Assembly: GCA_903873655.1 (NCBI GenBank)
Contig: CAIQPH010000245.1
Coordinates: forward strand, 1 to 39,193
DNA length: 39,193 nt
Origin: an uncultured Holophagaceae bacterium
GTDB lineage: Bacteria > Acidobacteriota > Holophagae > Holophagales > Holophagaceae
Direction: 5' to 3'
Numbering within the stretch: the first letter of the stretch is position 1; each line of letters begins with the position of its first letter. The notes beneath the pieces are model-generated. The model saw only the letters and a program-made list of their open reading frames with translations. It did no database searches and was not told the origin of the DNA. Made by a program: the position numbers and the translations under genes. Below, one piece after another: positions 287 through 5,444 of this stretch.

Positions 287-874
287 ATGGACCAGTCCGA
301 AATCGACGCCCTCCTTGCCGGAGGCGGAAAATCCCCCAAGAAGCCCAAGGCGGCCGCCGAGGCGCCACCGCCTGCCAAGCCGGTGTCCCCGTCTCAAGAA
401 GAACCCCACAAGGACGGCAGCGGCCATGTGATTTCCGAACTGGACACGGTCACGTCCGTGACGGAACGCGAGTCCAACAAGATCATGGACCAGCTGGATC
501 AGATCAGCAGCCTGGTCTCCCGCCAGCAACAGCTCGTGACCGACATGATGGGCCACGAAGGAGCCCAGTCCCCGGGCGTCCAGAAGGCCATCCATGAGGT
601 CATGAGCGCCAGCAAGGAGATTCAGGACAAGGTCTTCGAGGCGATGGACCTCATGCAGTTCCAGGACATCACCCGCCAGAAGCTCGAGCGCATCGTCCAC
701 CACCTGCGGCAGATCCATGACTACATCGTGGACCTGCTGGGCACCGGCCTGAAGAGTGATACGGAGCGGCCCTCCATCAGCCATACCATCGCTCAGACGG
801 GGACCACGCCCGACGAGAACAAGGCCCACGCGGACGCGGTGATCGAGGCCTTCAAGTCCCAGAAGAAGGGGTAA
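287..874 (+). CDS. cheZ: CheZ-family chemotaxis protein phosphatase
   Basis: Contains EIQDKVFEAMDLMQFQDITRQKLERIVHHL, matching the CheZ active-site helix (D and Q four residues apart, FQDxxxQ). Located between cheY and cheW/cheA. Confidence 0.88.
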   Translation: MDQSEIDALLAGGGKSPKKPKAAAEAPPPAKPVSPSQEEPHKDGSGHVISELDTVTSVTERESNKIMDQLDQISSLVSRQQQLVTDMMGHEGAQSPGVQKAIHEVMSASKEIQDKVFEAMDLMQFQDITRQKLERIVHHLRQIHDYIVDLLGTGLKSDTERPSISHTIAQTGTTPDENKAHADAVIEAFKSQKKG

Positions 875-877
875 GCC

Positions 878-2413
878 ATGGCCGCCGAGTCCACCCAGGC
901 CCTCCTCGCCACGGAGTTGGTGCCTTCGGGCCAGTTGGTGACCTACACCCTGGACAACGTGGAGTTCGGCCTGGACATCGACCGAGTGCAGGAGATCACC
1001 CATCGCACGGACATCACGCCCGTGCCCGGCAGCCCAAGCTTCATCCTCGGCGTCATCAATCTGCGCGGCCTCATCATTCCCGTCATCGACAGTCGCATCC
1101 GGTTTCACCTGGCCTCCCAGGAAACCACCACGAAGACCCGCATCATCGTCCTGAGGCTGGCCAGCGGCCCCACGGGGCTCCAGGTCGACTCCGTGGCGGA
1201 AGTGGTGCGCCTGGAGGACCACACCGTTCGAGAAACACCGCCCCTCGTGGCGGGCATCCGCGCCGAGTACCTGGCTGGCATGGTCACTGTGGGCACCCGG
1301 TTGATCACCCTGATCCATCTGGAGAAGCTGCTGGACAGCTCAGAACTGTCCCGGCGCACTGAGCTCGAAGACCTTGGCATGGCCGGCACGATCGGTGGCG
1401 CCGGGAATAATGACGCGGTCGAGGATCTCGAAGAGGATGGCCGCCCCTTCGTCACGTTCCGACTGGGCTCCGAGTCCTTCGGAATTGCCCTTCATGAGGT
1501 CGAAGAGATCGTCGAACTGCCCCCGGTCACCAAGGTGCCCGACGCCCCGGACTATGTGCTGGGGGTCATCTGCCTGCGGGACCAGGTGATGCCCCTGGTG
1601 GACCTTTCGGAAATCCTCTCCATCCAGCAGGGCGAGAGCGAGCGCAAGCGGGACATGGTGGTTCTGCTCTCCTTTGGCAGCGCCAAGATTGGGGTGGTGG
1701 TCGATGAGATCCAGGAGATCCTCCGCGTGCAGGATGGTCAGACTCTGCCTCCACCCCAGACGTTGTCCGAGGCGGAGATGGAACACCTAGAAGGCATCCT
1801 CCTGCTTCCCGATCGCATGGTGAGCCTCATCAACGTGCTGAAGATCATCACCGGTGACGACCAGGAGAAGATTGCCGCCATGGGTCAGGGGCTTGGTCTC
1901 ATGGACACCCGGGCCCAGGAGACGGTACCCAGCCTGGAACTGGTGGTCTTCCGTCTGGGCCCCGAGAGCTATGGCCTGCGCCTGCACGAAGTCCGCGAGA
2001 TCATCATGGTGGGGCAGATCACGCCAGTACCAAGGGCGCCCCACTTCGTGGACGGCGTGCTGAACCTGCGCGGGGAGGTCATGCCGGTGGTGGATCTTCG
2101 CACGCGGTTCGGCCTGGAGCGGGTCGAAGCGACTTCCATTTCCAGAATCCTCATCACCAGCATTGGGGGTGTGTTCACGGGTCTGGTGGTAGATGCGGTC
2201 GATGAAGTCCGGCCCGTGGATCTGCACCGCTTCGGGCCTCCGCCCGCCGTCACCGCCGTGGGTGCCAACCGCTATATCGAGAAGGTGGCCCGCCTGGACA
2301 ACGGCATGATCTTCCTCCTGGAGCTCAAGCAGCTTCTGACCGACACGGAGACCGAGCAGCTCCAGGGCCTCCAGGGACGCCGGGTACCAGCGAACAGGAC
2401 GGGTGAGCCATGA
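878..2413 (+). CDS. Chemotaxis scaffold protein with three tandem CheW domains
   Basis: Three CheW-type units, each with a (F/Y)G(L/I)xxxxVxEI...PDY/SF(I/V)LGVINLRG-like signature (starting near residues 18, 190 and 353). Confidence 0.88.
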   Translation: MAAESTQALLATELVPSGQLVTYTLDNVEFGLDIDRVQEITHRTDITPVPGSPSFILGVINLRGLIIPVIDSRIRFHLASQETTTKTRIIVLRLASGPTGLQVDSVAEVVRLEDHTVRETPPLVAGIRAEYLAGMVTVGTRLITLIHLEKLLDSSELSRRTELEDLGMAGTIGGAGNNDAVEDLEEDGRPFVTFRLGSESFGIALHEVEEIVELPPVTKVPDAPDYVLGVICLRDQVMPLVDLSEILSIQQGESERKRDMVVLLSFGSAKIGVVVDEIQEILRVQDGQTLPPPQTLSEAEMEHLEGILLLPDRMVSLINVLKIITGDDQEKIAAMGQGLGLMDTRAQETVPSLELVVFRLGPESYGLRLHEVREIIMVGQITPVPRAPHFVDGVLNLRGEVMPVVDLRTRFGLERVEATSISRILITSIGGVFTGLVVDAVDEVRPVDLHRFGPPPAVTAVGANRYIEKVARLDNGMIFLLELKQLLTDTETEQLQGLQGRRVPANRTGEP

Positions 2414-4521
2414 GCGATTTCGCCCTCGACGACCCCAGCTTCTACGAGGATTTTCTCGTCGAGGCACAGGAACATTTCGAGCAGATCGAGACCAACTTCC
2501 TGGCCCTCGAGGAGTCGCCCGGCGATCTGGACCTGCTGAACGCCATCTTCCGCAGCGTCCATACCATCAAGGGCGCCGCCGGGTTCCTCGGCCTCCAGAA
2601 GGTCCAGGCCCTCTCCCACATGGGCGAGAACGTGCTGGATGACCTGCGGAAATCCCGCATGGAGCTCAACGATCGCATCATGGAACTGCTCTTCGAGACC
2701 GTCGACATGCTCAAGGTCCTGGTCGAGGATGTGGGTGTCCAGGTGAGGAAGCAGGGTGAGGCCCAGGATCCAGATCCCAGCGAGTTGATCCGCAACCTCG
2801 AATCCTTGAAGAAAGGTGGCGCCGTCGCTGCAGCTGCGCCTGTCGTAGCCGCTACCGGCGACCTGCAGCTCCCGGCCGCGTTGTCCGGCGTGAGCGAGGC
2901 GGGTCGCAAGGCCGTTGCCGCAGCCCTAACCGAAGGCAAAACCGCGCTCGGGATCCATGCTGAATTGGGGAGCTCCATCTTTGGAACGGCCTTCAACCCT
3001 TTTTCGATGTTCCAGATGGTGGAGCTGGTGGGACGCCTCCTCCATCGGCAGCTGATTCCCCGGGAGCCCCTGGTGGATCTGGACAGTTTCGATCCCCGGG
3101 CCTTCCACCTTGATTTGGTGATGCTCATCGAGGCCACGGAGCCCATCGAGGAGGTCCGCAAGGTCTTCGGAGCGGTCTCGAATGCCACCATCACCTTCCA
3201 TCCGTTGAGCCTTGGGGCTGCACCCAGGACTGGCGCCGATGGTCCCGGAGACGGGGTCCCGGCCGCGGAGGACCGCCGCAAGAGCGGGCGGCGCAACTCG
3301 GACGACAAGGGCGCTACCGATACCATCCGGGTAAGCCAGGCCAAACTCGAACAGTTCATGAACATCGTGGCCGAACTGATCATCAGCAAGACCATGATCA
3401 GCCACTTGGTCGAGCGGCTCCTGCCCGAGGTGAAAGGACACCCGGCCGCAGCCACCGCCAAGGAGCTGGTCCACGCCTCCGTGTATCTGGATCACGTGAG
3501 CAAGGAAATCCAGGCCTCCGTGCTGGGTATCCGCATGGTGCCCGTGAAGACCATCTTCTCCAAATTCCCCCGCATGCTGCGGGACTTGGCCAAGGCTAGC
3601 GGCAAGAAGATCGACCTCCAGCTCGTGGGGGAGGACACCGAGATTGACAAGAGCATCATCGAGGAACTCGGCGACCCGATGATCCACCTCATCCGCAACA
3701 GTGCCGATCATGGCATCGAGATGCCTGCTGACCGGCTGAAATCGGGCAAACCGGAGGTTGGAACCGTGGTCCTGCGCGCCCGCCACGAAGGCGATAGCGT
3801 CGTGGTGGAGATCGAGGATGACGGGAAGGGCATCGATCCGGCGGTCATCCGTGCCAAGGCTGTCGAAAAGGGCCTGTTCTCCGTGGAGCGCATCGACGCC
3901 ATGCCCGACGATGAAGTGATCGAACTGATCTTCGCGCCCGGCTTCAGCACCGCCGCCAAGGTCACCGACATCTCGGGTCGGGGCGTGGGCATGGACGTGG
4001 TGCGGTCCAACGTGCGCAAGCTCAATGGCCGTGTGGGTGTACGCTCCACCGTCGGCAAGGGCTCGGTCTTCACCATCAAGCTACCCCTGACGCTGGCCAT
4101 CATCGATGCCTTGCTGGTGAAGAGCGGCAACCAGGTGTTCGCGCTTCCCGGGACCTCCGTCGAGGAGACCCTCATCGTCCCGCCGGAAACCATTTCCCAT
4201 CTCACCAGCCGGCAGGCCATCAACCTGCGCGGAGAGGTGCTGGGGGTCTGCCGCCTCAAGCACCTGCTGAAGTCGACCTCCCCTGCCAGCGCCGACGAGT
4301 CCGATGGGCTTTCCGTGGTGGTGGTCTCCGCTGCCGGACGGCGCATGGGCATCATCGTGGATAGCTTCGTCCGCCGCCAGGAAGTCGTCATCAAGCCCTT
4401 GGCCCCCTACCTTGCTGCCCTGCCCGGAATCAGCGGTGCTTCCATCATGGGCGACGGGGGCGTGGTGCTGATCCTGGACCCCGCTGAACTCCTGCAGCTC
4501 GCTGTCCAGGAGGCCGTGTGA
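2410..4521 (+). CDS. cheA: Chemotaxis sensor histidine kinase CheA
   Basis: N-terminal Hpt motif SVHTIKGAAGFLG; kinase motifs MIHLIRNSADHGIE, DDGKGID, GRGVGMDVV; C-terminal CheW-like domain. 4-bp overlap with the preceding gene. Confidence 0.97.
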   Translation: MSDFALDDPSFYEDFLVEAQEHFEQIETNFLALEESPGDLDLLNAIFRSVHTIKGAAGFLGLQKVQALSHMGENVLDDLRKSRMELNDRIMELLFETVDMLKVLVEDVGVQVRKQGEAQDPDPSELIRNLESLKKGGAVAAAAPVVAATGDLQLPAALSGVSEAGRKAVAAALTEGKTALGIHAELGSSIFGTAFNPFSMFQMVELVGRLLHRQLIPREPLVDLDSFDPRAFHLDLVMLIEATEPIEEVRKVFGAVSNATITFHPLSLGAAPRTGADGPGDGVPAAEDRRKSGRRNSDDKGATDTIRVSQAKLEQFMNIVAELIISKTMISHLVERLLPEVKGHPAAATAKELVHASVYLDHVSKEIQASVLGIRMVPVKTIFSKFPRMLRDLAKASGKKIDLQLVGEDTEIDKSIIEELGDPMIHLIRNSADHGIEMPADRLKSGKPEVGTVVLRARHEGDSVVVEIEDDGKGIDPAVIRAKAVEKGLFSVERIDAMPDDEVIELIFAPGFSTAAKVTDISGRGVGMDVVRSNVRKLNGRVGVRSTVGKGSVFTIKLPLTLAIIDALLVKSGNQVFALPGTSVEETLIVPPETISHLTSRQAINLRGEVLGVCRLKHLLKSTSPASADESDGLSVVVVSAAGRRMGIIVDSFVRRQEVVIKPLAPYLAALPGISGASIMGDGGVVLILDPAELLQLAVQEAV

Positions 4522-5444
4522 ACCTGGGCGCCGCACCCTCGTCCGAGGCACGGGTCCGTGCCGAGGAACGGGGGTCTGTCCTCCACCGCTTCATGACCTT
4601 CTTCCTGAATGAGCGGGCCTATGGCCTGGCGTTGCGCCATGTGGCCGAGATCACGCCCCTCCGGAGCCTGAACAAGCTGCCGCACATGCCCCGCGCCGTG
4701 GAAGGCATCCTTGACCTGCGTGGCCGCGTGGTGCCCGTGGTGAACCTGCGGGCGCGGATGTCCATGCCGCCGCTGGATCCCTCGAAAACTGGCACCATCC
4801 TGGTCCTGGATCTGGCAGGGACGGCCACGGGCCTTCTGGTGGACGCCGTCGATGCTGTCCTGACCGTCCCCGAGGAGGACATCGTCCCGGCCAGTCCCTT
4901 GTTGGCCGGACTCGAAGGCGCCTGGGTGGAGGGGTTCATCGTCCAGGGCGAGCGGGTGGTCACCCTGCTCGATGCCGTTCTGATCGCCAATCATGGCATT
5001 GGACGCACCCAGGGCAAGGCAGCCCTGGTGAGTCTCAGCCTGGAGGAGCGCCTCGATGATGGTCTGAAACGACTCATCGAGATGGCACCCTCCAAACTGG
5101 AAGGCGAGCACCGCGTGGTGCCCCAGATCGAGACCTCCATCTCCTACACTGAGCAGGAGATGGGCAAAGTGCTGGAGCGGGTGGAAGCCATGCTGGCCAG
5201 CACCGATAAGGTCTTCACCGGGCTCGGCTACCTGAAGCAGGAGGCGGGGCTGGGCAAGCTGAAGGGCCACGAGAGCGACATCGCGGAACTGGAACGCACG
5301 AACCAGGAGATGCAGGACACCGTCTTCGCCCTAATCCAGCAGATGCAGTTCCAGGACATTGCCCGGCAGAAACTCGAGCGGGTCATGGTCCATCTCCAGG
5401 GCATGCAGGGCGCGATTTCCGGCAAGCTGCGCGCCGCCAGGTAG
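4518..5444 (+). CDS. CheW domain fused to a CheZ-like C-terminal region
   Basis: N-terminal CheW domain (YGLALRHVAEITPL...AVEGILDLRGRVVPVVNLR); C-terminal MQDTVFALIQQMQFQDIARQKLERVMVHLQGM closely resembles the CheZ encoded at 287-874. GTG start overlaps the cheA stop. Confidence 0.88.
   Translation: MNLGAAPSSEARVRAEERGSVLHRFMTFFLNERAYGLALRHVAEITPLRSLNKLPHMPRAVEGILDLRGRVVPVVNLRARMSMPPLDPSKTGTILVLDLAGTATGLLVDAVDAVLTVPEEDIVPASPLLAGLEGAWVEGFIVQGERVVTLLDAVLIANHGIGRTQGKAALVSLSLEERLDDGLKRLIEMAPSKLEGEHRVVPQIETSISYTEQEMGKVLERVEAMLASTDKVFTGLGYLKQEAGLGKLKGHESDIAELERTNQEMQDTVFALIQQMQFQDIARQKLERVMVHLQGMQGAISGKLRAAR

Follow-up and report, generated by a model that had tools for sequence, protein, structure and literature searches.

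We describe a conserved gene of the bacterial family Holophagaceae that codes for a CheW domain continued at its C-terminus by a CheZ-like helical hairpin, and propose that its product probably serves as an array-anchored CheY-P phosphatase acting via its CheZ core. The architecture of the protein, the homology of its tail to CheZ, the invariance of the catalytic residue pair, the operon setting and the phyletic distribution are directly supported, and from these we infer residence in the array, dimerisation and catalysis. In such an arrangement, carried by flagellated soil and sediment bacteria of the Geothrix type, one gene fusion would seem to keep the "on" and the "off" enzyme together at the receptor array.

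The fusion gene occupies positions 4518-5444 on the plus strand of the window, by which we mean the whole stretch of 39,193 nucleotides that was analysed, beginning at base 1 of contig C245 of a 3.47 Mb draft genome which among named organisms is closest to Geothrix and other Holophagaceae of the phylum Acidobacteriota. Its GTG start overlaps the stop codon of cheA by 4 nt (GTGA), and an AGGAGG at 4508-4513 stands four bases 5' of this GTG. Both the reading frame and the C-terminal end of the 308 aa product (...MQDTVFALIQQMQFQDIARQKLERVMVHLQGMQGAISGKLRAAR) proved exactly as given in the original prediction. The first 5.4 kb of the window form a single tightly packed plus-strand operon running from cheY to the fusion gene, with a single-domain cheY (1-276; Pfam Response_reg, 7.3e-25) cut at its 5' end by the contig start, a stand-alone cheZ (287-874; 195 aa, catalytic pair D127/Q131), a gene for a triple CheW-domain protein (878-2413; 511 aa, three Pfam CheW stretches, 7.6e-99) and a cheA (2410-4521; 703 aa, with Hpt, dimerisation, ATPase and CheW/P5 regions recognised by Pfam) preceding the fusion; the next gene, from 5462, was recognised by eye as asnS-like. 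The order cheZ-cheWWW-cheA-cheWZ is retained across loci, and cheY precedes cheZ in both relatives that were read for its position. The triple-CheW protein, encoded between cheZ and cheA, is retained in the operon across the family. In the relative L012 cheY is intact (118 aa), and directly upstream of it lies a gene for a small protein that by eye appears PilZ-like (L012:803-1372). A scan for promoters and terminators gave no signal above shuffles. An assembly artefact or a frameshift is ruled out as the origin of the fusion, because it recurs in dozens of genomes.

The assignment of the N-terminal half to CheW is borne out by Pfam CheW (PF01584), which matches residues 25-157 (4590-4988, plus strand) at 2.4e-29, with 102.2 bits for the protein against a curated cut-off of 23.5, and by Foldseek, which matches this half to E. 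coli CheW (6s1k_C, 4.7e-14). In an alignment to 2ho9, E44 and R68 of the fusion are the counterparts of E38 and R62 of E. coli CheW, which are interface residues, and E44, R68 and G69 are invariant among the 46 aligned orthologues, whose identity to the window protein ranges from 42 to 87%. The CheW half would be expected to reside in the receptor-CheA-CheW array.

The tail had been read as a single CheZ-type helix; that helix is indeed homologous, but homology to the CheZ core goes further, spanning residues ~165-307 and taking in both arms of the hairpin. BLASTP of the fusion against the operon CheZ gives E=2e-13 with 32% identity over 121 aa covering both arms, so the similarity reaches well past the helix originally quoted. 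By Smith-Waterman the pair scores 139, whereas none of 2000 shuffles exceeds 69; when the catalytic helix is left out, the first arm by itself still reaches 54, narrowly above the best of 2000 shuffles (53). A comparison of the tail profile with the profile of operon CheZ orthologues by hhalign yields 99.0% probability (E 5e-18). The expectation that domain profiles would recognise both halves held for Pfam CheW and for NCBIfam Phos_CheZ, the latter being the only model to match all 47 tails (best 5.5e-7; 3.6e-5 for the fusion of the window), with profile positions 157-191 aligned to fusion residues 259-293. It failed for Pfam CheZ (PF04344), for which the tail is below threshold, with weak matches in three of the 47 tails; NCBIfam NF041271 scores the tail at 23.4 bits, under a cut-off of 350 that is set for full length. 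The operon CheZ likewise falls under both cut-offs (Pfam CheZ 1.6e-4, below the gathering score; NCBIfam 3.4e-14), and Pfam CheZ matches all 38 operon CheZ orthologues weakly. The catalytic DxxxQ is present in the fusion in an FQDxxxQ context (D280/Q284), a spacing common to both genes as had been stated, and a search for [FY]QDxxxQ in the six-frame translation of the 39-kb window has precisely two matches, one in the operon cheZ and one in the fusion. The similarity proposed at the nucleotide level is also found, one base out of register with the coordinates first quoted: 653-690 against 5343-5380 match at 34/38 positions, and 652-690 against 5343-5381 at only 11/39. No CheZ structure emerged when the PDB was searched by sequence using alignments of the tail and of CheZ, and tblastn against plasmids matched the CheW half alone and nothing with the tail. 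The BLASTP, shuffle, hhalign and Phos_CheZ comparisons support a CheZ relationship of the tail.

AlphaFold2 monomer models computed with orthologue alignments draw the C-terminal half, as anticipated, as a CheZ-like two-helix hairpin. A variable linker with a short helix (residues 158-199, 4989-5114; helix at about 165-189) is followed by two long predicted helices, a first arm at residues 200-244 (5115-5249), aligned to the first arm of CheZ, and a second, catalytic arm at residues 252-307 (5271-5438), which carries the Phos_CheZ match, all on the plus strand. D280 (5355-5357) and Q284 (5367-5369), the counterparts of the catalytic Asp and Gln in the DxxxQ of CheZ, are placed in the second arm, at the end of which the protein stops without the C-terminal CheY-binding helix of CheZ. 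The tail-only model has a pLDDT of roughly 78-92 over most of the arms, and the full-length model a mean pLDDT of 68.5, a modest confidence. Foldseek of the tail against the PDB returned generic helical hairpins with no significant match, CheZ being absent from the top 50 listed. At the level of sequence, then, the profile match and the predicted fold on which the original prediction had been made to depend were both found. Across the 46 orthologues D280 and Q284 are invariant, as are Q277, Q279, I281, R283, K285, L286, E287 and H292 within the tail. The CheW domain has a mean pairwise identity of 0.62, the linker (158-178) one of 0.36 and each hairpin arm one of 0.66; the highest value among the segments compared, 0.81, falls in the block 270-292 that holds the motif. 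Such conservation of the enzyme core, set against the variability of the linker in front of it, is the pattern expected of a functional two-domain protein.

A survey for CheW-CheZ fusions in other genomes, of the kind originally envisaged, detected the fusion in 51 of 77 Holophagaceae genomes, a count that includes G061, where the gene is cut by the contig end; in 396 sampled Acidobacteriota genomes, full-length and tail profiles found no fused form outside this family. Its occurrence tracks FliM and the flagellum: 49 genomes have both FliM and the fusion, 20 have neither, two have the fusion only and six have FliM only (Fisher p=3e-11, a value that overstates the evidence because related species are not independent observations). 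The stronger point is that whole groups, such as the genus g6, are without both. All six FliM-only genomes are less than 90% complete, and the contigs of G023, G028 and G031 that carry the operon cheZ start no more than about 1.5 kb from it; gaps in the assemblies therefore probably account for some of the missing fusions. In a tree of the CheZ core, built from a short alignment and weak at its deep nodes, the fused tails group together as a single clade, with support 0.99, apart from the operon CheZs; the tail profile ranks the operon CheZ above every other CheZ of the genome. The simplest history is one fusion event in the ancestor of the family, perhaps by duplication inside the operon.

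The stand-alone CheZ of the operon begins MDQSEIDALLAGGG, of which the first ten residues, MDQSEIDALL (287-316, plus strand), form a putative FliM-like CheY-P-binding peptide. FliM of the same genome begins MAKILSQEEVDALL, and EIDALL is the CheY-P binding site of FliM/FliY (PMC9126983). Positions 1-9 of this peptide are conserved in 36-37 of 38 operon CheZ orthologues and position 10 in 30 of 38. A CheZ from another Acidobacteriota family (L107:540-1178) likewise begins MDQSEIDALL. Conserved acidic-hydrophobic stretches close the stand-alone CheZs (ADAVIEAF, VDDIIAQF, ADSVVAEF); by eye they apparently resemble the CheY-binding helix that CheZ has at its C-terminus. The fusion carries neither an N-terminal EIDALL-type nor a C-terminal CheY-binding-type peptide.

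In the working that we propose, the CheW half would bring the fusion next to CheA within the array, the hairpin would pair into a dimeric CheZ-type four-helix bundle, and D280/Q284 would speed up dephosphorylation of the CheY-P that CheA, encoded just upstream, produces, the covalent link allowing one operon to fix the kinase:phosphatase ratio at the array. The operon CheZ, with its FliM-like peptide, would work on CheY-P that has gone from the array. The missing C-terminal helix could mean a weak affinity of the fusion for CheY-P. The protein might depend on a high local concentration of CheY-P, and could tolerate the lack of a peptide because new CheY-P is concentrated at the array; alternatively, it might make up for the lack by pairing with the operon CheZ. 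We also entertain, tentatively, a scheme in which CheY-P dephosphorylation is shared between two specialised products of the operon, a CheW-CheZ anchored in the array and a CheZ that imitates the motor, possibly forming a heterodimer in which the fused subunit is the anchor and the free one captures CheY-P.

Other explanations of the tail were weighed against this proposal. Helical repeats yield spurious profile matches, and Pfam gives many unrelated coiled-coil matches at E>0.001, but a chance helical or coiled-coil similarity without kinship to CheZ has a practically negligible probability, given that none of the 2000 shuffles reaches the observed score, that Phos_CheZ alone is found in all 47 tails, that the catalytic residues are invariant and that both genes belong to the same operon. 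The hairpin might, alternatively, be chiefly a docking module that recruits the operon CheZ, along with its putative CheY-binding peptides, to the array through a hetero-four-helix bundle, catalysis by the fused arm being secondary. In CheZ the working unit is a pair of dimerised hairpins (PMC7750401); here one operon encodes both hairpins, whose kinship extends across both arms, and the fused hairpin is without a CheY-binding tail whereas the operon CheZ has the N-terminal EIDALL and a conserved C-terminal peptide. We nevertheless regard this as unlikely: full invariance of D280/Q284 down to 42% identity would be unexpected for an arm that never catalyses, and the two hairpins have diverged to about 32% identity.

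The concentration of conservation in the catalytic block 270-292, including the D/Q pair and going beyond helix-packing positions, argues against a purely structural hairpin, whose dimerising tails would cross-link CheW units to rigidify or space the array and whose catalytic pair would be kept by descent. Such a role would accord with the dimerisation of CheZ-type hairpins (PMC7750401) and with the triple-CheW protein of the same operon, which makes an unusual adaptor geometry plausible, and we judge it highly improbable. There is, lastly, a very slender chance that the fused phosphatase targets another response regulator; this could be a further CheY, for example, or the output of a second che cluster on contig C128. 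In favour are the CheA-, CheW- and MCP-like genes of that contig and the at least 10 MCPs encoded in the genome. Against it, the operon of the fusion itself supplies a cheY and a cheA as evident partners, and the occurrence of the fusion follows FliM.

The tail had been counted as a second CheZ, which falls short for the genome as a whole, as this has at least four CheZ-type domains and one CheX, encoded on contig C328. A HAMP-CheZ of 309 aa (L104:4029-4958, contig C54), whose gene adjoins one that by eye is DUF4388-like, is the genome's only CheZ above the Pfam cut-off (Pfam CheZ, 1.5e-11). A further CheZ-like protein of 181 aa (L105:924-1469, contig C7; NCBIfam 9.6e-10) has the motif YQDVVRQ and relatives elsewhere in the family. 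In other Acidobacteriota families we observed two MCP signalling proteins with a C-terminal CheZ-type QFQDIxRQKIE (L109:2281-3639 and L110:1881-3053; Pfam MCPsignal 2e-27 and 4e-29, Phos_CheZ 8e-6 and 6e-3, respectively), receptors into which a phosphatase may be built.

Mutants and models have been used for years to ask why E. coli places its CheY-P phosphatase next to the kinase. A kinase-phosphatase tie made by gene fusion, found in several genera of one family and tracking the flagellum, amounts to a natural experiment, and the adaptor-phosphatase would be a ready-made construct to control signal lifetime at the array. CheV, which is CheW fused to a receiver domain, resembles the fusion in joining a CheW adaptor to an extra signalling domain, which in CheV is a phosphate-accepting receiver and here is of phosphatase type. 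The MCPsignal proteins L109 and L110 also have a CheZ-type catalytic helix on an array component; their host, however, is a receptor, they belong to other families, and the tree does not place them near the CheW-CheZ tail. The open-access literature that we searched yielded no CheW-CheZ fusion.

E. coli CheZ is recruited to the array through CheA-short (PMC7750401), and the co-localisation of CheA and CheZ in that organism sharpens the response (PMC2673030). E. coli CheZ resembles the predicted structure of the fusion in that a long helical hairpin bears the DxxxQ pair on its second arm, and it achieves what is predicted for the fusion, the placing of a phosphatase beside CheA. In contrast to it, the fusion would be anchored by a covalent CheW domain with no need of docking to CheA-short, its hairpin arms are shorter and the C-terminal CheY-binding helix is absent. 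Leptospirae have CheA-CheC/CheX fusions (PMC10542144), in which, as here, a CheY-P phosphatase domain is joined to a core array protein, although there the fold is that of CheC/CheX and the host is the kinase, whereas here the predicted fold is CheZ-type and the host is the adaptor. The component parts are known and the fusion of a phosphatase to an array protein has a precedent in Leptospirae, with the CheW-CheZ combination being a real, conserved variant.
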